Made by a program: the position numbers and the translations under genes
Part shown: piece after piece, positions 352-16,943 of the stretch
Layout of the letters: the number at the start of each line of letters is the position of its first letter
How positions within the stretch are numbered: position 1 is the first letter of the stretch
The notes under the pieces: model-generated
Databases searched by the model: none
The model's input: the letters and a program-made list of their open reading frames with translations, nothing else
What the model was told of the DNA's origin: nothing
Assembly (NCBI GenBank): GCA_016187925.1
Contig: JACPIS010000036.1
Span: 1 to 64,000 of the forward strand
Reading direction: 5' to 3'
Length of the DNA stretch: 64,000 nt
Source of the DNA: Opitutia bacterium
Lineage (GTDB): Bacteria; Verrucomicrobiota; Verrucomicrobiia; Opitutales; Opitutaceae

Positions 352-1560
352 GTGTCCGAAGCTGCGCCTACTCCCGATTCCACTTCGCCCGAGTGGTTTT
401 CCCCCACCTGGGGGCGCTGGGTCTTCGCCCTCGCGCTGGCGATCGGAGGATTCCTCCTGCCGCAGGAAGTCCCGTTGGAGTGGTACCCGCTCAACGAGCC
501 GGGGCAGGACATCCTCTACCTCGAAATCACCTGCGCGGCGGACAAAAACGGATTCTTCGAGATCTACTACAACACGACCGACGGCATCAACGAGCTGGAC
601 AAGATCTACGTCCCGATCTCCCCAACCACCCAGACCTTCACCTATACCTTCCCGCTCAAGGACGCACCGATCACCGAGCTGCGGCTCGATCCCGTGGCCG
701 ACGGCGGCACGCTCACGATCCGGCAAATGCGCATCATCGACCGCCGCAGCACCGAAGTCCGCCGCTTCACCCGCGACATGTTCACGCCGCTTCACGAAAT
801 CGCGGCCATCCAATCCGCCTCCGACGGCTGGACCATCACGTCCACTCCGGGCAACAACGATCCCTATACCCGGATCAACCTGCCGGCACCGCTTTACGCC
901 GTGGGCCTGAACGGCCGCAATCTGCAACGCTGCCTCCTCTCTTCGGGCTACCTCGCGATGATGCTGTGGATTCTGCTGCTCGCGGTGCTGTTCACTTTCT
1001 GGCGCCCAAAGAGCTGGCGTGATTTCTTCCGGCATGTGGGCTTCATGGCCGCCATTGCCCTGCCCTTCTCTCTCGTCGGCAACCGCGGCCTGATCCGCCA
1101 TTCCTTCCATTATGCGCGCTTCACGCTCCCGGCGCCCAGCCCGGCGCTGAACCTGGAAATGGATCTGGCCAGCGATCACCCCACCCCGGCGCAATTGTTC
1201 CGGGACACCGGCCATGGCTACAACGAGACGGAGAGCGTCCGCATCGGCTACGAGCCGGTGGCAGGTCTCCAGACCCTGCGCTTCCCGCTGCCTCCGGGCC
1301 CGCTGCGCGCGCTGCGTTTCGATCCCTTTGATGCGCCGGGCCGTCTGGACATCCGCGGCATCCGGCTCGTCGGTACCGACGGCATCACCCATGCGGTGCT
1401 GCCGCTCGACTCGCTCGTGCCGCAGCGCGACATCGCGCGCCTCGGCGAAGACGGCGGCTTTCTGCGGCTGCAAACACCACCCGAAGCCCGCGACCCGATC
1501 TTGGAATTCTCTCCGTCCGCTCTCGCCGAGATCAACCGGTCGCTGGCCACCCGGCGCTGA
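352..1560 (+). CDS. Membrane protein with duplicated extracytoplasmic beta domain
   Basis: This is a 402-residue protein of unknown function with a GTG start. A hydrophobic segment lies at about residues 20-36 and two more at about 195-220 and 228-246. They separate two soluble beta-rich regions. The two regions look like copies of one domain: each has an L-R-x-D-P core (LRLDP in the first, LRFDP in the second), then a G-x-L-x-I-R stretch and a turn into a second strand set. LRxDP...I-R modules are seen in membrane proteins and glycosyltransferases of surface-polysaccharide loci, so a glycan-binding role is plausible but unproven. It sits directly before the exporter ATPase, where a Wzm permease often lies, but it has too few membrane spans to be Wzm. 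It may be the last gene of an operon that starts outside the window. Confidence 0.75.
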   Translation: MSEAAPTPDSTSPEWFSPTWGRWVFALALAIGGFLLPQEVPLEWYPLNEPGQDILYLEITCAADKNGFFEIYYNTTDGINELDKIYVPISPTTQTFTYTFPLKDAPITELRLDPVADGGTLTIRQMRIIDRRSTEVRRFTRDMFTPLHEIAAIQSASDGWTITSTPGNNDPYTRINLPAPLYAVGLNGRNLQRCLLSSGYLAMMLWILLLAVLFTFWRPKSWRDFFRHVGFMAAIALPFSLVGNRGLIRHSFHYARFTLPAPSPALNLEMDLASDHPTPAQLFRDTGHGYNETESVRIGYEPVAGLQTLRFPLPPGPLRALRFDPFDAPGRLDIRGIRLVGTDGITHAVLPLDSLVPQRDIARLGEDGGFLRLQTPPEARDPILEFSPSALAEINRSLATRR

Positions 1561-1729: not shown

Positions 1730-3151
1730 ATGTCAGCTTCTCCCACCCACCCGGCCGATCACGCACCCGTCATCTCCCTGCACGGCGTGACCAAGACCTA
1801 CGCCATCTGGGACGATCCTTCCGACCGGTTGCTGGCGCCGCTGCGCCGATTGCTGCCGGGCGGAACCAAACATCGAAGCACCCAAGGCCGGCTCTTCACC
1901 GCGGTGCGCGAAATCTCCCTCGACGTCGCACCCGGCGAATGTCTCGGCATCATCGGCCGCAACGGCGCGGGCAAGAGCACGCTCCTGCAGATGATCGCCG
2001 GCACCGTGCGACCGACCGCCGGCACCATCGCCGTGCGCGGACGTGTCGCCGCCTTGCTCGAGCTGGGCAGCGGTTTCAACCCCGACTTCACCGGTCGGGA
2101 AAACATCCAGCTCAACGCCGCCATCCTCGGCCTGGACCCGGAGGAGATCGCCCGCAAATTCGACTCCATCGTGGAGTATTCCGGCATCGCCGAATTCATC
2201 GACCAGCCTGTCCGCACCTACTCCAGTGGCATGACGTTGCGCCTCGCCTTCTCGGTATGCGTGCATGTCGAGGCGGACATCATCATCATCGACGAGGCGC
2301 TGGCGGTGGGCGATGCGCGCTTCCAGTTCAAATGCCACGCCACGCTCGAGCGGATGCTCAAAGAGGGCCGCACCATCATCTTCGTCTCACACGACACCAA
2401 CTCCGTCAAACGCATGTGCCGCACCGCCGTCCTGCTCGAGCGCGGCGAGGTGTTGCTCAAGGGCTCGCCCAACGACGTTACCAACATCTACACGAAGCTC
2501 ATCACTAGCCCGCACGGCGTGGAGGCGATACGGGACGATCTGGCCGCCCTGCGCGAGCGGGGGTCCGAACCGGAATCCACTCCGGCAGTCTCGATCACTT
2601 CAGCCGCAGCCAATCTCGATGCCGCCGTCGATGGGCGCACCGCCTCCGCCACCAGCCTTCTCACCGACGAACGCGCCCACCAGCAGGTCTCCGACAAGGA
2701 ATATTCCTATGGCGGCGCGCTCGGCCGGATCACCTCCGTCCAGCTCACGGATGAACAGGATCAAGCACGCCTGAGTTTCCTCGCGGGCAGCCCCATCCGG
2801 GTCCACATCAGCTGCGAGGCCGCGACGGAAATCCCCAACCCCATCTATGCGCTCACCGTGAAGGATGTGCGCGGCCAGGAGATTTACGGCACCAATACCT
2901 ATTTCCAAAACCAGACGCTGCCGGCCGTGCCGGCGCACGCCCGGGTCGAGGCCGTCTTCGACGTACAGCTCAACGTGCAGCCCGGTGTCTATTTCATCTC
3001 GCTCGGCTGGGTCCGCCTCGTGAACGGCGAAGTCGTCGTCGTCCACCGACGCTACGACGTCCTGCGCTTCGATGTGCTGCCGCGCGACAAATCCTTCGGC
3101 CTGGCCCACTGCCCCACCCGCATCACCGTGCGTCCGTCGACGGTTGCCTGA
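1730..3151 (+). CDS. wzt: Polysaccharide ABC exporter ATPase, Wzt type with C-terminal carbohydrate-binding domain
   Basis: This 473-residue protein is the ATPase of an O-antigen/polysaccharide ABC exporter. It drives export of undecaprenyl-linked polymer across the inner membrane with a Wzm permease. Walker A is GRNGAGKST at residues 76-84, the signature is YSSGM at 164-168, Walker B ends in D188-E189, and the switch histidine is H221 in FVSHD. After a linker, residues about 320-460 match the Wzt C-terminal domain, which in E. coli O9a/O8 recognises the modified non-reducing end of the chain. The ATG at 1730 is preferred over an in-frame TTG at 1688 because the family N-terminus begins shortly after it. 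The stop is two bases before the next start, so it is co-transcribed with the methyltransferase. No Wzm is visible in the window. Confidence 0.9.
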   Translation: MSASPTHPADHAPVISLHGVTKTYAIWDDPSDRLLAPLRRLLPGGTKHRSTQGRLFTAVREISLDVAPGECLGIIGRNGAGKSTLLQMIAGTVRPTAGTIAVRGRVAALLELGSGFNPDFTGRENIQLNAAILGLDPEEIARKFDSIVEYSGIAEFIDQPVRTYSSGMTLRLAFSVCVHVEADIIIIDEALAVGDARFQFKCHATLERMLKEGRTIIFVSHDTNSVKRMCRTAVLLERGEVLLKGSPNDVTNIYTKLITSPHGVEAIRDDLAALRERGSEPESTPAVSITSAAANLDAAVDGRTASATSLLTDERAHQQVSDKEYSYGGALGRITSVQLTDEQDQARLSFLAGSPIRVHISCEAATEIPNPIYALTVKDVRGQEIYGTNTYFQNQTLPAVPAHARVEAVFDVQLNVQPGVYFISLGWVRLVNGEVVVVHRRYDVLRFDVLPRDKSFGLAHCPTRITVRPSTVA

Positions 3152-3152
3152 T

Positions 3153-4169
3153 ATGTTTCAATTCACCTGCCACGGCCAGAGTCACTCCCTCCAGCCCGGC
3201 CAGTATTTTGCCCGCCCGCGCGAACTGGGTTTCCGCGACACGCCCTCCGGTGAACTGCTGGCTCTCGTGGCGGAAATCGAGCAAGGCCGCCCCTGGCGGG
3301 ACGCCGTCGCCGCCCGCTACGCCACGGGAAAGAAGTGGCTCCATCGCATCGTCACGGATCCCAGCCGTACCGCCTTCTTCAACGAGGTGCTTCCCGGCGG
3401 CCCCGGGCCGGTGCTGGACATCGGCTCCGGCTGGGGACAAACCGCCCGACCACTGGCCCATGAACGTCCGGTCGTGGCGCTCGAACCCGTGGCCGAGCGC
3501 CTGGCGTTCGTCAGGGCGACGGCGCGACAGGAAGGTGTGCAAGAGCGCCTGGCAGGCCTCGGCGCGGATTATCTCGAAGTGGAGTTCGCCACCCGGTTCG
3601 CCGTCATCTGCGCCATCGGCGTGCTGGAATGGGTCGGGGCTTTTCAAGATGCCGCCGACCCGCGGCAACGGCAGCGCGATTTCCTGAGCAAAACCCGCCG
3701 CGAGCTGGAGTCCGGCGGCGCGCTGGTCCTCGGCATCGAAAACCGGCTCGGCCTCAAATACCTGCTCGGCTGCCCCGACGACCATATCGGCGTGCCGCAC
3801 ATCGCCTGCCTGCCCGCCGAGCTGGCCGCCCGCCGCTGGCAGGAAACCAGCCGGCACGCGCTCCGCAGTTTCACCTATTCGCTCGTGGAGCTCGACCGGT
3901 TGCTGCGCGACACCGGATTCGGGCAGGTTGAATTTTTCGCCGCGTTCCCCGACTACAAGCTGCCCGAGCGGATCATCAACCTGGCGGACGGCGGCGCGGC
4001 GTTGCATGAATTTCTCCGCTCCGGCGCGCTGCCGCCCGAGCATAACGGCTACGACGGCAGTCCGCTCGGGCAATCGCTCCAAGCCGAGCTGGCCGCGCAA
4101 TACCATGCGCTCGCCGCCGCAGGTGTGGCCCGGCATTATGTGCCGAGCTTCTTCGTCCGCGCCCGCTGA
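3153..4169 (+). CDS. SAM-dependent methyltransferase, candidate chain terminator
   Basis: This is a class I methyltransferase of 338 residues. The SAM-binding glycine-rich loop is VLDIGSGWG at residues 87-95, followed by an acidic strand end (ALEP, about residue 112) and a later C-A-I-G-V-L-E-W motif. The start is the ATG at 3153, one base after the Wzt stop. Its position between a Wzt with a binding tail and a kinase-containing protein suggests that it modifies the glycan non-reducing end, as the methyltransferase part of WbdD does. A sugar O-methyltransferase acting inside the repeat is the main alternative. Confidence 0.8.
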   Translation: MFQFTCHGQSHSLQPGQYFARPRELGFRDTPSGELLALVAEIEQGRPWRDAVAARYATGKKWLHRIVTDPSRTAFFNEVLPGGPGPVLDIGSGWGQTARPLAHERPVVALEPVAERLAFVRATARQEGVQERLAGLGADYLEVEFATRFAVICAIGVLEWVGAFQDAADPRQRQRDFLSKTRRELESGGALVLGIENRLGLKYLLGCPDDHIGVPHIACLPAELAARRWQETSRHALRSFTYSLVELDRLLRDTGFGQVEFFAAFPDYKLPERIINLADGGAALHEFLRSGALPPEHNGYDGSPLGQSLQAELAAQYHALAAAGVARHYVPSFFVRAR

Positions 4170-4184
4170 AACCGCCCGTCCGCC

Positions 4185-6863
4185 ATGGCCGACATCCATA
4201 TCGCGGAAATTTTCGCCGAGCTGGTCCGCCGCGGCCTGGTCGCTCCGACTCCACCACCCGCGCCGCTCTCCGGCGGCAACGCCGACCGGCGCGCTGAAAA
4301 CGTCCGCCTTTCCTGGCAAGCCCACCTACCCGATGGACGGACGGTGCGGCTCACCCTCGGTCCGAAACTCTCCGCGCAGACGGCGCGCCAGGCCGCGTTC
4401 GCCCGCGCTTGCCCGACGCTGGTGCCCGAGCTGCTTTTTTTCGTTTCCCTGGCCCAAGGCGAGGCGGCAGCGGAGGAGTTTTTTGAAGGCGTCTCGATCG
4501 AGCAGGCCGGCCAATCCGGTTCCCCCGCCCCCGAGAAGATCCAGGCCGCGTTTGCCCGCGCCTGCTCCATTCTCGCCGCCACCGAGGAAGCCTCCAGCGA
4601 AGAGGCACGTCGGCGGGAATGGCGGGAATGGTCCGCCTCGCTCACGCAATTATCCTTCTGGACGCCCCTCGGGCGCTCGTTGCTGGAAGAGCAGATCCTA
4701 CCACGCCTCTACGCCCGTCTTGCCGTGGCATCGCCGGCGACCCGCTGGAGCAATGGCGACTTCATCAGCGCAAACCTGCTGGTCGCCCCCGGCGGAGAAA
4801 CGCGGCTCATCGACCTGGAGTTTGCCGCGCGAACCCATTTCCACGCCGAGGATGCCGTGCGCTTCCATGTGTTGTCGTCCATTGCGCGGGCTCATCCCGA
4901 GTGGTTCTCAACGGTGCAGCCTTTGCCCGGCCCGGCCTGGCATTTGTATTTCTGGCTGCGGCAGCTGGGGCTTGAGGCCACCAACAACACACCTGAATAC
5001 CTCGCCGGGATCCTCCCCGTCCGCCTCGCACTCATTCGCCGGCTCGCCGAGCAAACCCTGGGCGTTGTCCTCACGGGCTGGGCAACCGATGCCCTCGCCG
5101 CGCAGGCCCAGGTGGAGGAGGCGCGCTGGGTCTCCTTGCCCGGCGCCGCCGTCAAATTCTCCGGCTGGTGCCATGTGCCCGAGGCGAGGGCACTGCGCGC
5201 CATCTGCCTTTTCGCCGACAACAAATTGCTCGCCGAGACCCCGCTGATCGAGCGGAGCGATGTGCAGCGGCATTTCGCGGGCGAACCACGCGCGCTGAGC
5301 TCCGGTTTCACGTTGACCGCCCGACTCACCGGATTCCCGACCGAGCTCGTTATCTGCGCCCAGACGAACGCCGGTGCGCTGCTACCCTTTCGCACGGTAA
5401 ACCCCGAGGCGCTGCCCGGACGCGGTCCCACACTCGGCGACTACGCCCGCTGGGCCGCGCAACACGACCCCGATCCGCCCTCGCCCGCCACCGTACCGGA
5501 TGGTCCGCGGTTTTCGATCCTTCTGCCGGTCTACAACACGCCGGCCGAGTTCCTGCGAACCTGTCTGGCCTCGGTGCGCGCGCAGCACTATCCCCGCTGG
5601 GAACTCTGCGTGGTGGACGACGCCTCGCCCGCCGCGCACGTCGGTGCCGTCCTGCGTGAAGCCGCCGCGGCCGACGCCCGCATCCGGGTACAAACCCGCG
5701 CGACCAACGGCGGCATCGCCCGCGCGACGAACGACGCCTTGGCGATGGCGCGCGGCGAATTCATCGTGCTGCTCGATCACGATGACCTGCTGCGCCCGCA
5801 CGCCCTGCTTGAGTTCGCGCGCCGCCTCGCGACCGAGCCATCGCTTGATGCACTTTACAGCGATGAGGGCAAGATCACGGCCGAGGGCCAGCTCATCCTG
5901 CCCATCGGGAAACCCGATTTCTCACCGGAATTCCTGCTGGGGGTCATGTATATCGGCCACGCCCTGAGCGTGCGCACCACCGTGGCCCGGGCGACGGGCG
6001 GCTTCGATTCGACCTACGACGGCGTGCAGGATTACGAATTCTTTCTCCGCGTCACCGAGCGGACCCGCCGTATCGGGCACATCGACAAGATGCTCTATCA
6101 CTGGCGCCAGTCGCCCGGCTCGAGCGCACTGCAAGGCAACGTCAAAGGCAACATGGACGAGAAACAGGCCGCCGCGGTGCGCGCGCATCTGCGGCGCACC
6201 GGGCGCAGCGAAACAGCCGTCCCCTTGTCAGAACATCGCGTGCGGCTGGCCGCTGGCGCCGCACCCGCCTTTGCGCTCGTCCGCCCGGTCGCCGGCGAGT
6301 CGGCGCCCGCCGCGCTCCGGCGCGCTGCAGCCGTAACCGCGGCGGAAGTGCTCGTCCTGCTCGGCACCGAAGTCCAAGCGCCCACCGATGACTGGCCCCG
6401 CGAGCTGGCCGCACTCGCGATGCGACCGGACTCCGGCTGCGTCGCACCGGTACTTGTGTCCCCGACCAGCCGCGTCATCGAAGCCGGCTGCACCTTGACC
6501 GGAGGGCGATTCGTCCGGCTGATGCAGGGCTTCGACGCCAGCGGCGACGGCTACAATGGCTCGCTCCGTTGCACGCGCGAGGTTGCAGCCGTGTCACCCA
6601 TCTGCATTGCGGTGCGCCGCACCATCGCATCCGGATACCGCGGCGATGCGTGGCAAGAATTCCTCGAGGTGTTGCGAAAGGCCGGACTTTACCATCGTGT
6701 GGCGCCGGCGGTGCAGCTGACGGTGGGCAACACTCCTCCGCTGCCGGAAAATGCGTCGGTCGGCGCCATCGGTTTTCGTGATCCGTTCTACAACCGCCAT
6801 TTCGCTCCGGATTCGGGCGACTACCGGCTCCGCGACGACTTCGCGCCCTCGACATCATCCTGA
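4185..6863 (+). CDS. APH-like kinase / R module / GT2 glycosyltransferase fusion
   Basis: This 892-residue protein is a fusion. Residues about 30-310 resemble the aminoglycoside phosphotransferase/choline kinase fold. The catalytic loop is NGDFISANLLV (N190-G191-D192, N197; the usual H-G-D has N for H) and the metal-binding aspartate is D210 in IDLE. Residues about 316-405 resemble one R module (FSGW early, F-A-G, G-F). Residues about 440-680 are a GT2 domain with LLPVYN, VVDDAS and DHDD starting at D531. The last 200 residues look like the back half of a second GT2 (D-P-F-Y-N near the end) without its nucleotide-binding part. Neighbours suggest a role in capping or extending the exported polymer. 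The kinase fold is well supported by motif; its substrate is unknown. Confidence 0.75.
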   Translation: MADIHIAEIFAELVRRGLVAPTPPPAPLSGGNADRRAENVRLSWQAHLPDGRTVRLTLGPKLSAQTARQAAFARACPTLVPELLFFVSLAQGEAAAEEFFEGVSIEQAGQSGSPAPEKIQAAFARACSILAATEEASSEEARRREWREWSASLTQLSFWTPLGRSLLEEQILPRLYARLAVASPATRWSNGDFISANLLVAPGGETRLIDLEFAARTHFHAEDAVRFHVLSSIARAHPEWFSTVQPLPGPAWHLYFWLRQLGLEATNNTPEYLAGILPVRLALIRRLAEQTLGVVLTGWATDALAAQAQVEEARWVSLPGAAVKFSGWCHVPEARALRAICLFADNKLLAETPLIERSDVQRHFAGEPRALSSGFTLTARLTGFPTELVICAQTNAGALLPFRTVNPEALPGRGPTLGDYARWAAQHDPDPPSPATVPDGPRFSILLPVYNTPAEFLRTCLASVRAQHYPRWELCVVDDASPAAHVGAVLREAAAADARIRVQTRATNGGIARATNDALAMARGEFIVLLDHDDLLRPHALLEFARRLATEPSLDALYSDEGKITAEGQLILPIGKPDFSPEFLLGVMYIGHALSVRTTVARATGGFDSTYDGVQDYEFFLRVTERTRRIGHIDKMLYHWRQSPGSSALQGNVKGNMDEKQAAAVRAHLRRTGRSETAVPLSEHRVRLAAGAAPAFALVRPVAGESAPAALRRAAAVTAAEVLVLLGTEVQAPTDDWPRELAALAMRPDSGCVAPVLVSPTSRVIEAGCTLTGGRFVRLMQGFDASGDGYNGSLRCTREVAAVSPICIAVRRTIASGYRGDAWQEFLEVLRKAGLYHRVAPAVQLTVGNTPPLPENASVGAIGFRDPFYNRHFAPDSGDYRLRDDFAPSTSS

Positions 6864-6960
6864 CGCCGCCACATTTTACCGCCTACGACCCGACTGATGA
6901 TGGCCGCGTTGACAAAAGACTTCACATCCGGCGGCGGTGCGCCTTGATGTGCTGTCATCC

Positions 6961-7488
6961 ATGAAGCCCGCATCCTCCGAGCCGGCCGAGCTGCTCAATC
7001 GCGTGCGCCAGCAACTCATCCTGGCCCAGGTGCGCATCATGGAATTGGAGGACGTGCGCGACGAACTGGCACCCCGGCTCGCCGAGACGGACCGCCTGCT
7101 GCGCGCCGCGCAGGAACTCGCCGACGCCAAGGCGGACGAGGCCGCGCATCTCGAAAAAGTCCGCGCCGACTTGCAGGCCCAGTTCGAGCACATGCGTCAC
7201 ATGCAGCATGTGACCAACGAGGCGCTGAACACGACCCGCGGCCAGCTCGCCAACGCCGAGCAGGACAGTGAACGCCTCCGGCAGGAAGCCATCGGCCTGC
7301 TCACGCAGGCCGCGCATCTCAGCGAGCAAACCGGCCGTCTGCAGCAGGAGCTGACCGAAGCCCGCACCACGGCCGCGGCCCACCAGACCCGTATCGAACA
7401 ATTGGACGCCGAGCAGCGGGCGACGAAAGCCTCCCGCAGCTGGCGCTGGACCGCCTGGCTCCGCTCCCTCGAACGCGCGCTCCGCTAG
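6961..7488 (+). CDS. Free coiled-coil protein with SRSWRxTA-type C-terminus
   Basis: This 175-residue protein consists almost entirely of charged heptad-like helix from about residue 10 to 160, rich in L, A, E, Q and R. It ends in SRSWRWTAWLRSLERALR, an amphipathic basic tail. The motif S-x-S-W-R-x-T-A-x-L-R commonly ends coiled coils attached to surface-glycan glycosyltransferases and methyltransferases. The start is put at ATG 6961; an in-frame GTG at 6937 would add eight residues. It lies 8 bases before the next gene and just after the kinase-GT2 gene. I infer a membrane-associated scaffold or length ruler, like the coiled coil of WbdD. It has no enzymatic motif. Confidence 0.75.
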   Translation: MKPASSEPAELLNRVRQQLILAQVRIMELEDVRDELAPRLAETDRLLRAAQELADAKADEAAHLEKVRADLQAQFEHMRHMQHVTNEALNTTRGQLANAEQDSERLRQEAIGLLTQAAHLSEQTGRLQQELTEARTTAAAHQTRIEQLDAEQRATKASRSWRWTAWLRSLERALR

Positions 7489-7495
7489 CGCCGCC

Positions 7496-9427
7496 ATGAG
7501 CATTGCCGACACCGTCCGGCTGCACAGCGAGGTCGACACCCCGCGCCCGCTCCGCGCCACCCATGGCCGCATCAAGCTGACCGGCTGGTGCCTCGACGAG
7601 GACCAGGCCGCCCCGCCGGCCGTGCGCCTGTCCGTCGGCGGCGCGGTGCTCGCCGCCCAGCCATCGTCCACCGAGCGCGCCGATGTGCGCGCGCGTTTCC
7701 CCAAACATCCGGCCGCGGCCCGCTGCGGCTTCGTCATCGAGGGAACCGTGCCGGCCGGCGTGCATCTGGCGCAGGCGGAAGCCCGGACCGCCGGCGGCGT
7801 CTGGCAGATTTTCAAGCGCTTCACCGTCGCCGCGGAGGCGGTGCCGTTCACCACGACACTCGAAACACCCGCCGCGACCGGCACGGTCCGCTCCCGGGTG
7901 CTGGTGACCGGCTGGGCGGTGCATCCAAACCAGCCGATCAAGGCACTGACGCTGCGCTACGGTCATCAGGAAATCCCCGCCGATCCAGGCCGGCCCCGGC
8001 CCGATCTGGCACAACTCTTCCCCGGCGCTCCGCAGGCCGCCAGCGCAGGCTTCACCGGCCGGACCATTCTCTCCGCCGGCCGCGGCCTGCTGCGGATCAA
8101 GGCCCGGCTCGCCGACGGTTCGGTGGCGCTCGCCCGCACCGGACTGGAAGTCAACATCGCCACGGATGAAAACTACGGCCCGGAGTTCGACTGGAGCGCG
8201 CCCCGCATTCCCTTGCCGACCCCGGCAGCCCGGCCCGCCGAACCGCTGCCCCGCGCCGCGCGTCCGCTGAACACGCTCTTCATTCTGCACGGCAGCTTCG
8301 CCGCGAACAGCGCCCTGCACGTGGCGGCGCTGGCCAACGAGCTCGCCGCCGCCGGCCACGATTGCGCGGTCGCCGTCCCGCATGATCCGGAGACGCTCGC
8401 GCATTATGTGCAGCCCCGGTTCCGCGGCCTGACTTTCGCCGCCGCCGGGCAAAGCACCGGCTTCGCCAACGGCCGCGGCCCGGACATCATCCACGCCTGG
8501 ACGACGCGCGAAAACGTCCGCCGCCTGACCGAGACGCTGCGGGCGCGGCACCACTCGCGCGTGATCGTCCATCTGGAAGACAACGAGCCGCAACTGCTCG
8601 CGCTCACCCTTGGCCGCAGCATGGCCGAGCTAGAACAGCTGCCCGCCGCGCAGCTCGATGCGTTGGTGCCGCCCGACCTTTCCCATCCGCTCCGCAGCCG
8701 CGAGTTCCTGACCCGGGCCGACGGCGTGACGGTCATCCTCGACCGCCTGCGCGAATTCGTGCCGGCGGACAAGCCCACCACTACGCTCTGGCCCGCGGCG
8801 GACGCCCGCTATTTTTTTCCGCGGGAAAAGCCGCAAGAGTTCCGGCGCATCCTCGATACTGCGCCCGGCACGACCACGCTCTTCTACCATGGCAACGCGC
8901 ACACCGCCAATGCCGCCGAGATGCGCGAGCTCTACCTCGCGGTGGCCCGGCTCAACGAGGCCGGCGAGTCCGTGACGCTGATCCGCACCGGCCGTGACCA
9001 GGTGGACTTCCTCGGCAACGAGGCCGCGCGCGTCCGGCCGCATGTGCTCGAGCTGGGGCAGATCCTGCACCATCACCACCTGCCGCCGCTCATGGCGCTG
9101 GCGGACATTTTCGTGCAACCGGGCGGCCCCGACGCCTTCAACGACTATCGCTTCCCCTCCAAGCTGCCGGAGTTCTTCGCGCTCGGCCGGCCGGTGATCC
9201 TGCCGCGCACGAACCTCGGCACGGCCCTGCACCACGGCGTCGACGCCTACGTGCTCGAGCGGGCGGACGCCGCGGGGATAGCCGGCGCCGTCACCGCGCT
9301 GCGCCGGGATCGCGCGCTCGCCGAACGCCTGGGCGCGGGGGCCGCCGCCTTCGCCACGAAGCGCTTCAGCTGGCGGCGCAGTGCGGCGGCACTGGCCGCC
9401 TTCTACCAGTCTTTGTTACCGGCCTGA
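7496..9427 (+). CDS. GT4-like glycosyltransferase with two N-terminal R modules
   Basis: This is a 643-residue protein. Residues about 20-112 and 128-222 are two beta-rich modules; the second shows TGWAVH, RPD, FPG and GF. From about residue 258 there is a GT-B fold typical of GT4: an N-terminal Rossmann start (LFILHG), a helix with HVAALANELAAAGH, and a C-terminal donor half with MALADIFVQPGG and FPSKLPEFFALGRPVI. The canonical E-x7-E of the other GT4 genes here is not obvious, so it belongs to a different GT4 subfamily. No signal peptide is present, so it should act in the cytoplasm on a lipid-linked acceptor. Confidence 0.8.
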   Translation: MSIADTVRLHSEVDTPRPLRATHGRIKLTGWCLDEDQAAPPAVRLSVGGAVLAAQPSSTERADVRARFPKHPAAARCGFVIEGTVPAGVHLAQAEARTAGGVWQIFKRFTVAAEAVPFTTTLETPAATGTVRSRVLVTGWAVHPNQPIKALTLRYGHQEIPADPGRPRPDLAQLFPGAPQAASAGFTGRTILSAGRGLLRIKARLADGSVALARTGLEVNIATDENYGPEFDWSAPRIPLPTPAARPAEPLPRAARPLNTLFILHGSFAANSALHVAALANELAAAGHDCAVAVPHDPETLAHYVQPRFRGLTFAAAGQSTGFANGRGPDIIHAWTTRENVRRLTETLRARHHSRVIVHLEDNEPQLLALTLGRSMAELEQLPAAQLDALVPPDLSHPLRSREFLTRADGVTVILDRLREFVPADKPTTTLWPAADARYFFPREKPQEFRRILDTAPGTTTLFYHGNAHTANAAEMRELYLAVARLNEAGESVTLIRTGRDQVDFLGNEAARVRPHVLELGQILHHHHLPPLMALADIFVQPGGPDAFNDYRFPSKLPEFFALGRPVILPRTNLGTALHHGVDAYVLERADAAGIAGAVTALRRDRALAERLGAGAAAFATKRFSWRRSAAALAAFYQSLLPA

Positions 9428-10259: not shown

Positions 10260-11675
10260 ATGTCCGCTCCCACCGAAATCACCGAACAACATCTGGCGAA
10301 GATCCGGGCCTTCTTCGACACCGTGCCCGAGCCCGGCGCGGCGGCCCGTCATTACCGGGCACTGCTGGCGCGGTATTACAATCAGCTCATCCCGGCCGGC
10401 GCCTCGGTGCTCGAGATCGGCTGCGGCAGCGGCGAACTGCTCGCCCACCTGCACGCCCGCCGCAAGGTCGGCGTGGACCTCTCCCCCCGCCAGATCGAGC
10501 TGGCGCGCGCCCGCGTACCCGACGCCGAGTTTCATGTCCAGGCCGGCGAGACGCTGCAGCTCGCAGAGGCTTTCGACTGCATCGTCATCTCCGACACGCT
10601 GAACTTCGCCGCCGATGTCCAGCGGCTGTTCGAGCAGCTCCAGAGCGTCGCCCATGCCGACACGCGGCTGTTCGTCAATTTCCATAATTCCCTCTGGCGG
10701 CCGATTTTCCTCCCGGCCACCTGGCTGGGCCTGAAGAGCCGGCAGCCGCAGAGCAGCTGGCTGGCCGGCTCCGACATCGTGAACCTCATGCAGCTGGCCG
10801 GGTGGAGCCCCGTCAGCCGGCAGGCTCGCGTGCTGCTGCCCGTTCCCCTGCTCGGGCTCGACCTGCTGGTGAACCGCTGGCTCGCCCCGTTGCTCCAGTG
10901 GTTCTGCCTCACCCTCTTCATCGCCGCGCGCCCCGTCCGCGGTGCGGCGCAAAGCCGCCCGTCGGTCTCGGTGATCATCCCCGCGCGCAACGAGGCCGGC
11001 AACATCGCCGCCGCCGTGAGCCGCACGCCCGACATGGGCGCCGGCACCGAGCTCATCTTCGTCGAGGGCCACTCGCGCGACGACACCTGGGAGCAGATCC
11101 AGCGCGTGCAGCGCGAAAATCCCGGGCGCCAGATCAAGATCATGCAGCAGACCGGCAAGGGCAAGGGCGACGCCGTGCGCCTGGGCTTCGCCGCCGCCAC
11201 CGGCGACATCCTCATGATTCTGGACGCCGACCTGACGATGCCGCCCGAGGAGCTGCCGAAGTTCTACGAGGTGCTCGCGAGCGGCCGGGCGGAGTTCGCC
11301 AACGGCGTGCGCCTGGTCTACCCGATGGACAAGGAGGCGATGCAGTTCCTCAATCTCTGCGCCAACAAGACGTTCGGCCTGATCTTCACCTGGCTGCTGG
11401 GCCAGCCGGTCAAGGACACGCTCTGCGGCACCAAGGTCCTCCGCCGCGCGCACTACGAGAAGATCGCCGCCAACCGCGCGCATTTCGGCGACTTCGATCC
11501 CTTCGGCGACTTCGATCTGCTCTTCGGCGCCGCCAAGCTCAACCTCAAGATCGCCGACGTACCGATCCGCTACAAGGAGCGCACCTATGGCACCACCAAC
11601 ATCCAGCGCTGGAAGCACGGCTGGTTGCTCCTGCGCATGGTGATGTTTGCCGCGCGCAAACTGAAGTTCACCTGA
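10260..11675 (+). CDS. Methyltransferase-GT2 fusion, polyprenyl-phosphate-sugar synthase-like
   Basis: This is a 471-residue fusion. Residues 1-220 are a class I methyltransferase (VLEIGCGSGEL at 50-60). Residues about 235-471 are a GT2 of the dolichol/polyprenyl-phosphate sugar synthase group: SVIIPARNEAGNI, a donor loop with TGKGKGDAVR, DADLT near residue 322, and CGTKVLRR. Such enzymes charge polyprenyl phosphate with a sugar for use by GT-C enzymes on the periplasmic side. Several GT-C genes follow, which fits. No C-terminal membrane spans are present, unlike GtrB. A Shine-Dalgarno-like AGGAGA lies at about 10247. Both activities are inferred from family. Confidence 0.8.
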   Translation: MSAPTEITEQHLAKIRAFFDTVPEPGAAARHYRALLARYYNQLIPAGASVLEIGCGSGELLAHLHARRKVGVDLSPRQIELARARVPDAEFHVQAGETLQLAEAFDCIVISDTLNFAADVQRLFEQLQSVAHADTRLFVNFHNSLWRPIFLPATWLGLKSRQPQSSWLAGSDIVNLMQLAGWSPVSRQARVLLPVPLLGLDLLVNRWLAPLLQWFCLTLFIAARPVRGAAQSRPSVSVIIPARNEAGNIAAAVSRTPDMGAGTELIFVEGHSRDDTWEQIQRVQRENPGRQIKIMQQTGKGKGDAVRLGFAAATGDILMILDADLTMPPEELPKFYEVLASGRAEFANGVRLVYPMDKEAMQFLNLCANKTFGLIFTWLLGQPVKDTLCGTKVLRRAHYEKIAANRAHFGDFDPFGDFDLLFGAAKLNLKIADVPIRYKERTYGTTNIQRWKHGWLLLRMVMFAARKLKFT

Positions 11676-11738: not shown

Positions 11739-12644
11739 ATGACCACCCGCCGGCCGCCACGTCTTCTGGTTTCGGGTGGCCGCGGCCGCCTGGCCGCGCT
11801 CATCGCCGAGCATTTCCGCACCGCGGGGCACGAGGTCGCGCTGTATTCCCGGCAACCGGCTCCCGGGTATCACGATCTGGCCAAGCTGATCGGCCCGGAT
11901 GCGCTGTCGGCCGCCACCGCAGTGCTGCATCTCGCCTGGAGCACGCTGCCCGCCACCGCCGAGCAAAATCCCGGCGCGGAGCAGACGCACGATCTGCCGT
12001 TGTTGGAAAAATTGCTGGCGACCCTCGCCGCACTACCCGCCGAACGGCGGCCGCACTTTGTTTTCTTCTCCTCCGGCGGCGCCGTCTATGGCAACGCCCC
12101 CGGCCGGCCCAACGTCGAGAGCGATGCCTGCCATCCCATCGGTCGCTACGGCCAAGCCAAACTCGCCGCCGAAGAAATGATCCGCGCAGCGGCCGCCCGT
12201 CATCAATTGCCCTGCACCATTCTGCGCATTTCAAATCCTTACGGCTACTCCGTGCCGAGCGGCCGCCTGCAGGGCATCATCCCGCACGCCATCCGCGCCG
12301 CCGTCGAAGGCCGGCCGCTGACGCTCTGGGGCGACGGCCAGGCCCGCAAGGACTTCATCCATTACACGGACTTCCTCGCCGCGCTTGAGGCCGTGTTGAC
12401 GCGACGGCTCACGGGCACCTTCAACCTCGGTGCGGGCGAATCGTACCGCGTCGGAGAGATCCTCGCGCTCGTGGAAAAACACACCGGCCGCAAAGTGGCC
12501 ACAACCACCACGCCGGCCGCAGCCTGGGACGTACAGGACAGTCGGCTCGACATCCGCCGCCTGCGCGAGGCCACCGGCTGGAGTCCGCGCATCACTCTCG
12601 ACGAAGGCATCCGGCGCTTCGCCGCCGGCCAATCCGCCCCCTGA
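11739..12644 (+). CDS. NAD-dependent sugar epimerase/dehydratase (extended SDR)
   Basis: This 301-residue extended short-chain dehydrogenase/reductase probably acts on a nucleotide sugar. The nucleotide-binding loop is SGGRGRLA (residues 12-19, a G-x-x-G variant). The catalytic set is SSGGAVYG (about 109-116) with Y137-G-Q-A-K141. RISNPYG and the DFIHYTDF stretch near residue 205 are typical of UDP-hexose 4-epimerases and related dehydratases. The exact substrate cannot be told. It is followed after two bases by the first GT-C gene and would supply an activated sugar for the locus. Confidence 0.85.
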   Translation: MTTRRPPRLLVSGGRGRLAALIAEHFRTAGHEVALYSRQPAPGYHDLAKLIGPDALSAATAVLHLAWSTLPATAEQNPGAEQTHDLPLLEKLLATLAALPAERRPHFVFFSSGGAVYGNAPGRPNVESDACHPIGRYGQAKLAAEEMIRAAAARHQLPCTILRISNPYGYSVPSGRLQGIIPHAIRAAVEGRPLTLWGDGQARKDFIHYTDFLAALEAVLTRRLTGTFNLGAGESYRVGEILALVEKHTGRKVATTTTPAAAWDVQDSRLDIRRLREATGWSPRITLDEGIRRFAAGQSAP

Positions 12645-12646
12645 CC

Positions 12647-14677
12647 ATGCCCGGCACCGATTCATCGCGAACCTCATCCCGGGCGCTCGCCATCATGTTT
12701 GCCCTCGTGGCCGGGCTCGCGCTCCTGCTGCTGGCACAGTCATGGCACGCCTCGCTGCTCGACCGGTACGAGTTCCGCCAGTTGCAGACCGCGCTCAGCA
12801 CCTACTGGATCGCGCAGGAAGGATGGCAACTGGACTATCCCCTGCCGTTGTTCGGGCCACCATGGTCGGCACCGATGGAGTTCCCCGTTTATCAGGTCAT
12901 CGTCGCCACGCTGCACTCGCTCACCGGCCTGCCGCTGGAGCAAACGGGGCGCCTGACCAGCATCCTCATGCTGCTGGCGACGCTGCCCGCGCTCTACGAC
13001 CTGCTCAGCCTCGCCGACCTGAAACCCTCGCGCCGCCTGATCGTGCTCACCGTCGTGCTGACTTCTCCGGTCTACCTGTTCTATGCGCGAACCTTCATGA
13101 TCGAGACCACGGCGCTGTGTTTCTCCGTGTGGTTTCTCGCGCTCCTGCGGCGGTCGTTGGCGAACCCCGCCTGGCCGTGGGTCGCCGCCACGGCCTTGGC
13201 GGGCACCCTCGCCGCCCTGACCAAGATCACCACGTTTCTGGTGTTCGGCATCCCGGCCCTCGCCCTCACCGTGGCCGCCCTGCGCCGGCCGGCCGCGACC
13301 GTGCGCCGCAGTGCGCTCGCCGCGCTGGTGCCCGCGGTCGTGTCGCTCGGACTCGGCTGGTGGTGGGTCAGGCACGCCGACGCCGTCAAGGACTCGAACC
13401 CCTTCACCGGCTTCCTGACCGCACGCGAGCTGCATGGCTGGAATTTCGGCACATGGAACCTGCGCTTCGATGCGTCGTTCTGGATTCACATTCAGGAAAA
13501 CATCGTGGGCTACAACCTCGCCGAGGGCGCCCTCGCCCTCGCTCTGCTGTGCGCGGTCTTCGCTCCGGCGCGAAGCCGCCGCCTCGCCGCCGTGGCGGTG
13601 CTGGGCTTCGCCTCCGGCCCGCTCGTCTTCGCCAATCTCTACCACCTGCACGACTATTATTACGCGGCCAACTCCCTGTTGTTGCTGGCCGCCGCCGGCC
13701 TGATGCTGGCCGCGGCGTGGGACGATCCGCGCCTGCCGCGCGGGACCAACTGGCTGGTGCTGGGGCTGGTCCTCGCCTTCCAACTGCACGCATTCTACCG
13801 GGGTTATCAGTCCCACCACCGCCATCCTGCTCCTCCACCGCCGGAGCTGGCGGCCACCATTCGCAACGCAGTGCCGGCCGACGGTGTCGTGCTCATCTAT
13901 GGCGCGGACTGGAATCCGCTCCTGCCCTATTATTTTCAGCGACGGGCGCTGATGGTGCCTGGCGAGCGTGAAAACGAAACCGCCGTGCTCGAACAGGTGC
14001 TCGCCCGGCTGCCGCCCCGGCGCATCGCCGCGATGGTCATCCATGGCGCCAAGCTCCGCGCCCGGCCGGATTTCATCCGCGAACGCGCGATCCGCTTCGG
14101 GTTCTCCTCCGAGGCCGCCGCCCGCGACAAGGACGACGAGCTCTACCTGCCGGCCGGACAGGCTCCGCTCCGGCCACCGGCACCAGCGATCAGCTTCGCC
14201 GGGGAGTATGGTTTTCCCACGGACCTGAAGACCGACAACCCGACCGGAGCCGCGCTCGCGATCTTCCGGCCGGCCCCGCAAGCGGTGCGCAGCCGCTACG
14301 GCGTGAGTTCCGCCGAGCTGGACGGCCATCCGATTCTCAACGCCCATGCGCCCTCCGAACTGGAATTCCACCCCGCACCGGGCGCGCGCCACCTCCACGC
14401 CGTCGCCGGGCTGCCCGATGGCGCCTTCGCGCCGGGGCGCGACGCGATCACCGACGGCATCACGATCGAGGTTATCGCCGTGACTCCCGGCGCGCGACAG
14501 CTCCTCTACCAACGCCGGCTCGATCCCGCGCGCCAGCCGGGCGACCGCGGACCGCAGACCATCGAATTGGATCTGCCCGCGGGTTTCACGGGCGAACTCA
14601 TCCTGCGCCTCGGCAACGGACCGGCGGGCAATCCCACCAACGACTGGGCTTACTGGGCCTCGGTCGAGATTCGCTGA
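12647..14677 (+). CDS. GT-C membrane glycosyltransferase (GT39-like), EFRQ family, with S module
   Basis: This 676-residue protein has about ten hydrophobic segments in residues 13-395 and a soluble C-terminal half. The first periplasmic loop carries EFRQ (42-45) in EFRQLQTA, followed by PMEFPVYQ, both conserved in the other locus paralogues. After the last span comes the soluble IYGADWNPLLPYY...RRA block and, at about 535-676, one S module (AHAPSE, TDG, RLDP, final DWAYW). GT39/ArnT-type enzymes transfer sugars from polyprenyl phosphate in the periplasm, with acidic residues in the first loop. The S module is probably a periplasmic glycan-binding beta sandwich. It is the only EFRQ member on the plus strand. 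Confidence 0.8.
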   Translation: MPGTDSSRTSSRALAIMFALVAGLALLLLAQSWHASLLDRYEFRQLQTALSTYWIAQEGWQLDYPLPLFGPPWSAPMEFPVYQVIVATLHSLTGLPLEQTGRLTSILMLLATLPALYDLLSLADLKPSRRLIVLTVVLTSPVYLFYARTFMIETTALCFSVWFLALLRRSLANPAWPWVAATALAGTLAALTKITTFLVFGIPALALTVAALRRPAATVRRSALAALVPAVVSLGLGWWWVRHADAVKDSNPFTGFLTARELHGWNFGTWNLRFDASFWIHIQENIVGYNLAEGALALALLCAVFAPARSRRLAAVAVLGFASGPLVFANLYHLHDYYYAANSLLLLAAAGLMLAAAWDDPRLPRGTNWLVLGLVLAFQLHAFYRGYQSHHRHPAPPPPELAATIRNAVPADGVVLIYGADWNPLLPYYFQRRALMVPGERENETAVLEQVLARLPPRRIAAMVIHGAKLRARPDFIRERAIRFGFSSEAAARDKDDELYLPAGQAPLRPPAPAISFAGEYGFPTDLKTDNPTGAALAIFRPAPQAVRSRYGVSSAELDGHPILNAHAPSELEFHPAPGARHLHAVAGLPDGAFAPGRDAITDGITIEVIAVTPGARQLLYQRRLDPARQPGDRGPQTIELDLPAGFTGELILRLGNGPAGNPTNDWAYWASVEIR

Positions 14678-14686
14678 GAACAACCG

Positions 14687-14738
14687 GCCGCGGCGAGGGC
14701 CCCGCGGCTCCGACCTCAGCCACACTGAGCCGGCTCAG
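14687..14738. terminator. Hairpins between convergent genes
   Basis: GCCGCGG (14687-14693) pairs with CCGCGGC (14702-14708). A second perfect palindrome, CTGAGCCGGCTCAG, lies at 14725-14738 and overlaps the minus-strand stop codon. They sit between two convergent membrane-GT genes and could stop transcription from both sides. There is no T-run, so the call is tentative. Confidence 0.35.
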
Positions 14739-16828
14739 TCGATCTGCAGCGGACCCAGCTGGATCCAATCCCGCGTATCCCGGCCCGCCGGGCCCGGGCC
14801 GAAGAAAAGCTCCACCTCGCCCGCCGCCGGCAGGGTGAAAGAAAACTCCAGTGGCCGCAGGTTGCCGCGATCGTCGCGATTGTGCCGCGGGTCGAAAGAG
14901 CGCGTGGCGAGTTTTGTTCTCTGCCCGTCCGGCGTGAGGGAGAACAGGCTCACTTCCACACCATCGGTGGCGTCGCCCTCCTTCAGATCCATGCGGTAGG
15001 CATCGAACGGCATCTGCAGCGAACTGCGCAGCGTGTGCGGGCCGGCCGGGAGCGCGAAGACCAGCCGGGTGGTCGGGTGCGCGCCATACATGGGTTGTCC
15101 GCTGGAGCCGTCCATGGCCGGGCCGAAGGTGGCAAAAAAGCGGACCGGCTGCGGCCGGAGCCCCACGAAAGGCTGCCGCTGCCAGCGGTGCACCGCCGCC
15201 AGCTCGAACCATTTGCCGGCCAGATTGCTCCGCGGCGGCTCGACGCCGGGGGCGAGCGCCACCTCGTGAAAGTTGTTTTCGAGCAAGGCCAGCAGCAGCT
15301 CGGCGCGCCGGGCCTGCGGCACGTAGACGCGCGCATTGTGCCAGACGTAGAGCGGCTCCGGGCCCAGCCCGCGCGCCACCGTCCGGTCGATCAGCCATTG
15401 CGCTCCACCCGGCTGGCCGACGACCACCAAGGCCCCGATCTTGTCCTCGCCCAGCCCGGCGAGCGCCCGCTCCACCCTCGCCGAGTCCCTCGCGATGTCA
15501 TCGCGGATCATGACGGCGCGCCGCTGGGAGTAGTGGGGCGTCATCGAGTTCCAGTCCTGCCCCAGCACCACGATCACATCCCGGGGATTGGTCAGGACGC
15601 GCAACGACGTGGTCAGGCCGTCGCCGCCGGGGCTGACGGCGTTTTGCGGCGGATAATACTGCTCCAAATAGCTCCACATCTGGCCGCCCAAAACGAAACA
15701 GATCGCAAGACCCGCCAGCCACCGCGAGACGGTTGACTCCGCCAGTGCCACCAAGGCCAACCCCATCGCCATCAGCAACAGCAGGGTGTTCGCGACGTAA
15801 TAGTAGCTGTGGTAGGTGTAGAGCACGGGAAAAACGACCAGGGCGGAACCGAAAAATACCAGGCACGCGGTGATCTCCCGCCAGCGACCGCGGCCCGCCA
15901 GGGGCACCAGCAGTCCGCACAGGAGCAGGACCGGCAGCCAGCTGAGTTCATGGCCCACGATGCGGGCCTTGATCGCCCACAGCGCGGGCGAAAACCGCGT
16001 CGCGGTGGTGCCGAGATTGAACTCCCGCAGTCCGGCCGAGGTGAAGGCGATGCCCAGCGGGTTCAGCGACTTGGTGGCGTCGGCGAAATCCAGCCACCAG
16101 AGCGTCGCCGCAAACGGCAGCGCGACCGCGGCGGCCATCCACGCCAGCTCGGTCTTCCATGCCTGCTTCCGGCTCGCCCACAACCGCGTCAGCGCCCACC
16201 ACCCGGCCGGCAGCAGATAGAGCATGAATGTGGTCACCTTGACGAGCCCGGCGCCCACGCCTGCCAGTATCGCCAGCACCAGCCAGCCCTTGCTCCTTTC
16301 GGACACCGCCCGCTCGAACGCCACCCAGAACCACACGCTGCACATCAGCGCCATCGTTTCGATCAGGAAGGCGCGCGTGTAGAAAATGTAGAGCGGACAC
16401 GTCAGCACGACCGCCAGCACCCACCAGCGCCGCGCCGGAGCGACGTTCCAGCGCCGCAGCAGCAGGAACACCGCCGGCAAAGTGAGGTAGAAGCACGCGA
16501 TGCTCACCGCCCGGCCCGCCTTGGTGAGACTCCAGTGCGTCACCTGGCTGACGACCACCACCGTCCACTGGTAGAGCGGAAACTCCATCGGGATCGACCA
16601 CGGCTTGCCCACCACCGGCGTCGGATAAGCGAGCGAGAAATTGTTCTCCGCCTTGATCCAGTAGGCCGACAAGGCGGTCTGCGCCTGCCGGAATTCCCCG
16701 CCCGGCAGGTTCTTGCTCTGCCAGCCGACCTGCACGCCCCAGAAATGAAAGCACAGGCACGCGACAAACACGGCCAGCGCCAGCCGGCCTTCCCAACGCA
16801 AGGGCTCCCGAGGAGCAGCGGATTCCAT
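14735..16828 (-). CDS. GT-C membrane glycosyltransferase, EFRQ family type A, with S module
   Basis: This is a 697-residue polytopic protein. GEFRQAQTALSAYWI is in the first loop and WSIPMEFPLYQW in the next. PLYIFYTRAFLIE follows in a membrane span, then further spans, the soluble GQDWNSMTPHYSQRRA segment, and a C-terminal S module (YGAHPTT, TDGVEV, FDP, DRG, final RDTRDWIQLG). The start is put at ATG 16828; an in-frame TTG lies 12 bases upstream. Its closest relative in the window by motif is the gene at 27636. It should act in the periplasm with a polyprenyl-phosphate sugar donor. It is divergent from the large GT gene at 16944. Confidence 0.8.
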   Translation of the reverse strand: MESAAPREPLRWEGRLALAVFVACLCFHFWGVQVGWQSKNLPGGEFRQAQTALSAYWIKAENNFSLAYPTPVVGKPWSIPMEFPLYQWTVVVVSQVTHWSLTKAGRAVSIACFYLTLPAVFLLLRRWNVAPARRWWVLAVVLTCPLYIFYTRAFLIETMALMCSVWFWVAFERAVSERSKGWLVLAILAGVGAGLVKVTTFMLYLLPAGWWALTRLWASRKQAWKTELAWMAAAVALPFAATLWWLDFADATKSLNPLGIAFTSAGLREFNLGTTATRFSPALWAIKARIVGHELSWLPVLLLCGLLVPLAGRGRWREITACLVFFGSALVVFPVLYTYHSYYYVANTLLLLMAMGLALVALAESTVSRWLAGLAICFVLGGQMWSYLEQYYPPQNAVSPGGDGLTTSLRVLTNPRDVIVVLGQDWNSMTPHYSQRRAVMIRDDIARDSARVERALAGLGEDKIGALVVVGQPGGAQWLIDRTVARGLGPEPLYVWHNARVYVPQARRAELLLALLENNFHEVALAPGVEPPRSNLAGKWFELAAVHRWQRQPFVGLRPQPVRFFATFGPAMDGSSGQPMYGAHPTTRLVFALPAGPHTLRSSLQMPFDAYRMDLKEGDATDGVEVSLFSLTPDGQRTKLATRSFDPRHNRDDRGNLRPLEFSFTLPAAGEVELFFGPGPAGRDTRDWIQLGPLQID

Positions 16829-16943
16829 CGCGACAGGCAATGAAATCGCCCCGCGCCTGCCAACCCGATTGTGCGCGCTCCCGGACGGTCGGAACAGGCT
16901 TTACTCCCCCGTCACCGCCCGGACTTAATGCGGACTCATTCGC
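16829..16943. promoter_or_regulatory. Divergent intergenic region
   Basis: These 115 bases separate two divergent genes and must carry start signals if both are transcribed from here. I see no convincing hexamer pair; TTAATG at 16925-16930 is a weak -10 candidate for the plus gene. Confidence 0.3.

Follow-up and report, generated by a model that had tools for sequence, protein, structure and literature searches.

Genes at the start of the contig

The genome is 4.0 Mb in size, and the window, by which we mean the whole 64,000-nucleotide stretch analysed here, makes up the first part of its contig 3. Its leftmost genes run in one direction on the plus strand in the order membrane protein, Wzt, methyltransferase (MT), kinase-GT2, coiled-coil protein and GT4 glycosyltransferase, and downstream of the GT4 gene lie more MT/glycosyltransferase and epimerase genes (Table 1). 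The initial annotation of this DNA had named, in a single orientation, a Wzt with a C-terminal cap-binding domain (CBD), an MT, a GT2 joined to an APH-fold kinase, and a free coiled coil, and Pfam matches, AlphaFold2 models and the heptad signal place every one of these parts at or near the positions proposed for it. Two linked genes had been left out, that of the upstream membrane protein and that of the GT4, the coiled coil's real neighbour.

The membrane protein has a homologue kept upstream of Wzt at loci L032, L033, L039 and L103. At L023 and L024 there are 542-aa beta-domain/MT fusions, and these align through their N-terminal half with the C-terminal half of the membrane protein; in Opitutales relatives this half is fused to the MT. 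No Wzm is encoded within the window. An orphan Wzm of the same kind as that of the complete genome G414 is present on contig 17 of this genome (G000:C17) and is a candidate partner; in G414 the Wzm gene is found at a distance of about 32 kb, in the same orientation.

Table 1. Features of the locus, in window coordinates
Feature	Position	Strand	Evidence and remarks
Membrane protein with two beta-domain copies	352..1560	+	No Pfam match; locus partner
Wzt, ABC-transporter ATPase with C-terminal cap-binding domain	1730..3151	+	ABC_tran E 3.9e-22, Wzt_C E 6.7e-29
Wzt cap-binding domain	2702..3106	+	RRYD at 3047-3058
Putative cap methyltransferase, class I SAM type, O7 ORF6-type family	3153..4169	+	Pfam Methyltransf_25/11, AlphaFold2
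Kinase-GT2 protein, whole gene	4185..6863	+	
APH-fold kinase domain (residues 1-300 of kinase-GT2)	4185..5084	+	NGD(192)..N197 at 4752-4775; D210 at 4812
Linker/beta domain, GT N-terminal type	5130..5483	+	GWC..SDV..GF read from sequence; no Pfam match
GT2 glycosyltransferase domain	5484..6104	+	Glycos_transf_2 E 1.9e-24, residues 444-553; chondroitin synthase match, residues 434-639
Free coiled-coil protein, candidate length ruler	6961..7488	+	Ends conserved, middle variable
GT4 glycosyltransferase, constant partner of the coiled coil	7496..9427	+	Pfam Glyco_trans_1_4
MT-GT2 fusion	10260..11675	+	Kept near coiled coil in G414, G080, G066
NAD-dependent sugar epimerase/dehydratase of constant block	11739..12644	+	Epimerase E 1.7e-32; downstream of coiled coil in L132-L134

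The Wzt-methyltransferase-kinase module

Relatives were gathered from small alignments and from one scan of 84,980 genomes, and comprise 15 Opitutae loci, one planctomycete locus and one WOR-3 locus. Gene-order searches found few relatives in close species, and this points to a variable locus. In Bosea and Rhizobiales the genome scan seems to have picked up cyclopropane fatty acid synthases through a short peptide pattern, and a kinase match in G139 (L013), whose neighbouring genes are of another kind, is likely a chance match and was dropped.

In the initial annotation the parts of an MT-plus-kinase terminator were placed in separate genes next to a cap-binding Wzt, and a gene-neighbourhood search was suggested. 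Such a search finds Wzt(CBD), MT and kinase in this order wherever an Opitutae locus with this MT is complete enough (the window, L029, L030, L032-L034, L036, L037, L039-L043 and L103) and in part at two loci that lie at contig ends (L031, L035); the same gene set is present in the complete genome G414. Because the order is conserved across the Opitutae loci, chance is excluded and the trio is a real module, which supports the proposed arrangement. Some loci have an extra gene in between, which is metallo-hydrolase-like in L030, L032 and L043 and encodes a polymerase-like membrane protein in L038 and L040.

The same parts occur among the relatives both fused and split. At the planctomycete locus L044 an MT (residues 41-348), a kinase (358-667) and GT2s are found in one 1478-aa protein, and in G241 a related MT is fused to a Pfam-APH domain. 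Loci L041-L043 have kinase-coiled coil fusions, and in L019-L021 the kinase is joined to a coiled coil plus a glycosyltransferase, with the tail S-W-R/K-x-x-x-P-x-R. In the Opitutaceae genome G460 the gene after Wzm-Wzt encodes a single 1112-residue protein in which a related MT and a kinase-like stretch are combined with a coiled coil and a GT2.

The AlphaFold2 model of the MT (pLDDT 92.8) has the class I MT fold (Z about 17 in the PDB comparison), and the protein carries the motifs DIGSGWGQ (89) and GIENRLGLKYLLG (194). ORF6 of Klebsiella O7 was shown by Kelly et al. 2024 (PMC11231755) to produce a methyl-phosphate cap; its single chain combines an MT and an APH-like kinase with two GT2s, a coiled coil and an Ig-like module. 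The profile of the window MT family matches ORF6-like proteins of Pseudomonas asturiensis and Citrobacter with E values of 1e-35 and 7e-39, respectively, and thus the window MT is, by sequence, of the O7 ORF6 type. Both gammaproteobacterial proteins are encoded directly 3′ of Wzm-Wzt (1457 residues in P. asturiensis; 649 residues in Citrobacter braakii, plasmid search). Their ORF6-like identity rests on matching published residue numbers (PMC11231755): the P. asturiensis protein has all six SAM-binding residues, Y28, Y66, G91, G93, E112 and Y158, in the numbering published for O7 ORF6, and an Asp at 443 to compare with the ORF6 catalytic D441.

Pfam and NCBIfam recognise the Wzt ATPase and its Wzt_C domain, the MT and the GT2, and give no match within residues 1-430 of the kinase-GT2 protein. 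The predicted structure of residues 1-323 (AlphaFold2 pLDDT 90.2, 15 sequences in the alignment) has an APH-type kinase fold, near to APH(4)-Ia (Z 18.3 over 271 residues), the amicoumacin kinase AmiN (Z 17.3, 268 residues, rmsd 3.9) and the choline kinase LicA (Z 16.5); this and the Pfam GT2 match bear out the fusion of an APH-fold kinase to a GT2 that had been read from the sequence. The kinase contains NGD(192)..N197 and ID(210)LE, with the D-to-N spacing of the APH catalytic loop, and 2 of the 15 kinase relatives have a Pfam APH match. The O7 ORF6 kinase is likewise unannotated, with AmiN as its nearest fold and D441 as its catalytic residue (PMC11231755). By its modelled fold the window kinase agrees with the O7 ORF6 type; the sequence match is weak and local, the kinase profile matching ORF6-like proteins around the catalytic loop only.

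Two other readings of the APH-fold domain bear on its role. Arg replaces the beta-3 Lys of canonical kinases in the window (R54), relatives often have His there, and an alpha-C Glu is not evident in the alignment of the kinase sequences, so ATP binding may be unusual or lost; the L034 kinase has also lost the metal-binding Asp (LIIAAEH). These features would suit a pseudokinase that has lost catalysis and is retained for sugar binding or as a scaffold, a reading which we nevertheless consider quite unlikely, as D192 and N197 are invariant and D210 is >90% conserved across the 15 sequences. Alternatively, an active kinase might phosphorylate sugars inside the repeat (or attach a small phospho-group), leaving the MT alone to make the cap. 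The nearest folds are indeed small-molecule phosphotransferases, such as LicA and the fructosamine kinases, and in G192 and G141 kinase-coiled-coil-GT2 genes follow Wzt with no MT, but such loci would fit a phosphate-only cap. Moreover, wherever a locus with this MT is complete enough, MT and kinase adjoin, L044 has them fused, and chain termination has been proven for the O7 ORF6 kinase, which is of this kind (PMC11231755). Phosphorylation within the repeat is therefore an unlikely role for this domain, and a terminator kinase remains our preferred reading.

The Wzt_C domain occupies residues 325-459 of Wzt (Pfam). A profile built from relatives of this CBD matches both the E. coli O9a Wzt CBD (2r5o, E 9.5e-10), with which it has RRYD in common, and that of Aquifex aeolicus Wzt (E 7e-16). 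RRYD is found in every Wzt of loci with MT and kinase in the locus set compared; in G080 and G181, where other enzymes follow Wzt, the motif reads QRYD and GRYD, respectively. The first Arg of the window RRYD aligns with Trp362 of A. aeolicus, a residue that packs against a neutral methyl cap (PMC9445017). This Arg is also found in E. coli O9a Wzt, whose cap is methyl-phosphate, and in the 5hno CBD. The idea that the RR motif is phosphate-specific is weakened by its presence in 5hno, and it may instead mark an acidic cap in general. The relationship between this pocket residue and cap chemistry is suggestive only.

The coiled coil and the GT4 block

The free coiled-coil protein shows a heptad signal in 34% of sequence windows, compared with 4% in shuffles. 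Its ends are conserved (N-terminal LRQQLILAQVRIMELED and C-terminal SRSWRWTAWLR), its length among relatives ranges from 133 to 229 aa, and the middle is the variable part. Conserved ends around a middle of variable length fit what would be expected of a ruler. The free coiled coil recurs in L031, L034 and G414, and there is no terminating enzyme on the same protein in the window, L034, L103 and L130-L134. It is followed by the GT4 gene in the window, L103, L130-L132 and L134, and a related GT4 of L039 terminates in a coiled coil of its own.

The coiled coil had been taken initially as a component of the MT/kinase set, and here the comparison with relatives goes against the initial annotation, as the protein is not specific to that set. 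It occurs without this MT or kinase in five Opitutaceae (G080, G181, G154, G196 and G066), in which the kinase profile has no match and the MT profile finds generic MTs only (E about 1e-7 to 1e-9). In all five the coiled coil adjoins the GT4 and/or the epimerase block. A Wzt_C protein is encoded 10-61 kb away on the same contig in G080, G181, G196 and G066, and the genes that follow this Wzt are of several kinds: an FkbM MT (RfbT match) in G080, a Methyltransf_24 protein in G181, a sulfotransferase in G066 and, one gene later, an FkbM MT in G196. In the complete genome G154 no Wzt_C protein is encoded near the coiled coil, and this genome does not fit the cassette picture simply.

The coiled coil is thus better seen as part of a shared ruler/GT4 block. 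Since it is kept with the GT4/epimerase genes while other enzymes follow Wzt, the comparison suggests that the coiled coil-GT4 part is constant and the cap cassette exchangeable, and because it is found in five Opitutaceae that have neither this MT nor this kinase, the coiled coil may serve the GT4 rather than this terminator. In its strongest form this would mean that the terminator consists of MT and kinase only and that the coiled coil is a scaffold for the GT4 or other polymerase parts, with neither a measuring role nor contact with the terminator. The position of the GT4 after the coiled coil, the GT4-coiled coil fusion in L039 and the five genomes just described all favour a scaffold; the ruler-like pattern of conserved ends and variable middle, the kinase-coiled-coil fusions in the sister loci L041-L043, and the presence of a cap-binding Wzt on the same contig in most genomes with the coiled coil speak against it. 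We regard a pure scaffold as a serious possibility that falls somewhat short of an even chance.

The characterised systems of Klebsiella and E. coli have the terminator on the same protein as the ruler (PMC11231755), and rod length and cap enzyme are therefore hard to vary separately. Here rod, cap enzymes and polymerase parts have genes of their own, and relatives have the same parts fused as well as split, so that measurement of the chain by the rod becomes testable, and it can be asked whether one rod serves different caps and whether the Wzt pocket residues track cap chemistry. We put forward only tentatively the broader idea that ruler and terminator have become genetically uncoupled in the Opitutaceae, such that a free ruler with its GT4 would be combined with swappable caps (methyl-phosphate, methyl and perhaps sulfate) and the Wzt pocket would change along with them. 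If true, this would break the stated rule that the terminator is always on the ruler protein.

Proposed mechanism and comparison with known systems

The locus is probably a terminator/export cassette of the Klebsiella O7 ORF6 type for an ABC-transporter-dependent O-polysaccharide, split into genes and lying beside a free ruler. From its parts we infer the following scheme. The APH-fold kinase would phosphorylate the terminal sugar of the growing lipid-linked chain, and the MT would methylate that terminal phosphate, whereupon growth would stop. The Wzt CBD would then bind the acidic cap, and Wzt, paired with a Wzm whose gene lies elsewhere, would export the chain. The GT2 fused to the kinase would be one of the polymerising enzymes. 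The free coiled coil would form a membrane-anchored rod, its SWRWTAWLR tail lying at the membrane/glycosyltransferase side and its conserved N-terminus acting as a putative docking site, so that the rod would set the distance between the polymerase (the GT4 and the GT2s) and the terminator.

In the literature searched we found no paper on O-antigen ABC export in Opitutaceae. The RfbT-type system of Vibrio cholerae O1 makes a methyl cap. It provides methyl only, and its MT is of a different family that is absent from the window; an FkbM/RfbT-like gene holds the same place after Wzt in the Opitutaceae genome G080. The Wzm-Wzt system of Aquifex aeolicus has the Wzt CBD family and cap recognition in common with the window; its cap is a neutral 3-O-methyl group with Trp362 over the methyl, whereas the window Wzt has Arg (PMC9445017).

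The initial annotation had likened the locus to WbdD of E. coli O9a. WbdD of E. coli O9a and Klebsiella O3 does resemble the window in combining kinase, MT and coiled coil with a CBD-bearing Wzt, but it is a single protein, with the polymerase WbdA separate, whereas the window parts are in separate genes (PMC3482155). Among the matches listed, profile searches of PDB sequences detected no sequence relation of the window MT or kinase to WbdD; no WbdD entry is among them, which is an absence from those matches and not an exclusion, and the fold comparisons rank other MTs and APH kinases first. A true WbdD homologue broken into pieces would account for the same activities and for the same type of Wzt CBD, including the profile match to the O9a domain and the shared RRYD. 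We think this very improbable, as the MT falls by sequence in the O7 ORF6-type family and the best kinase folds are of the APH type, while the WbdD kinase resembles eukaryotic protein kinases (PMC3482155). WbdD is thus a fair functional analogy and not the closest relative; the analogy of function survives from the first reading of the locus, and the family assignment moves, for both MT and kinase fold, to the Klebsiella O7 ORF6 type (PMC11231755).

Klebsiella pneumoniae O7 ORF6 has, like the window, an MT of this family, an APH/AmiN-like kinase fold, a GT2 on the kinase polypeptide and a coiled coil (PMC11231755), and it adjoins Wzm-Wzt as the window cassette adjoins Wzt. ORF6 is one polypeptide of 1414 residues, whereas the window has three genes (3153-4169, 4185-6863 and 6961-7488), in which the MT is separate and the coiled coil is free and downstream of the GT2. 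The domain that follows the kinase also differs: in the window it looks by sequence like a GT N-terminal beta domain, and in ORF6 it is a reported Ig-like carbohydrate-binding module. The arrangement had been put forward as possibly new. A terminator kinase on a glycosyltransferase polypeptide is already known from the characterised ORF6 (PMC11231755), and what is new is the gene fission. The loci described here would take the methyl-phosphate terminator of the O7 type beyond Klebsiella, where it was characterised, into Verrucomicrobiota and Planctomycetota, and the closest characterised protein is Klebsiella O7 ORF6, not WbdD.

Genes following Wzt and the kinase set

In related Opitutaceae, the gene right after the Wzt with a cap-binding domain encodes an FkbM/RfbT-like methyltransferase, a Methyltransf_24 protein or a sulfotransferase; these are candidate makers of alternative caps, possibly including a sulfate cap. 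At several loci an extra lipoprotein-like protein of metallo-beta-lactamase fold lies between Wzt/methyltransferase and kinase, and its L032 copy matches Pfam Lactamase_B. At L019 and L021 (genomes G192 and G141), Wzt is followed immediately by kinase-coiled-coil-GT2 genes with broken reading frames, and no methyltransferase was found with these genes; such loci may specify a phosphate-only cap or may be decayed. One kinase relative has lost the metal-binding Asp (LIIAAEH in place of LIDxEF).

Coordinates of the features discussed
Feature	Locus	Position	Strand
Alternative post-Wzt genes	L147	4007-6933	
	L149	9434-13125	
	L150	3207-7086	
Metallo-beta-lactamase-fold insert	L030	3047-3976	
	L032	6267-7196	
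	L043	11002-11991	
Kinase genes with no methyltransferase found	L019	4704-7450	
	L021	5469-9894	
Kinase relative	L034	2241-3500	
Large membrane proteins	window	12647-14677	+
	window	14735-16840	-
Wzz/PCP-like protein	L032	1430-2881	
	L103	11786-13204	
Genes with the beta-domain	window	352-1560	
	L036	11026-12867	
	L043	12130-14388	
	L122	8806-13179	

Membrane proteins

The two large membrane proteins of the window (YEFRQLQTALSTYWI and GEFRQAQTALSAYWI, respectively) look like convergent paralogues, and neither has a Pfam match; relatives keep a homologue of the first downstream of the coiled-coil/GT4/epimerase block. Immediately 5′ of homologues of the membrane protein encoded at 352-1560, upstream of Wzt, lies a membrane protein that, judged from sequence alone, is Wzz/PCP-like, an unusual neighbor for an ABC-type exporter.

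A recurring beta-domain

An uncurated beta-domain (GY.E..S.R...LRFDP..G), matched by no Pfam model, is repeated at several sites: in a membrane protein, behind the kinase, and in the ORF6-like Pseudomonas protein. It is probably the Ig-like module known from ORF6, the one-chain terminator of Klebsiella O7.
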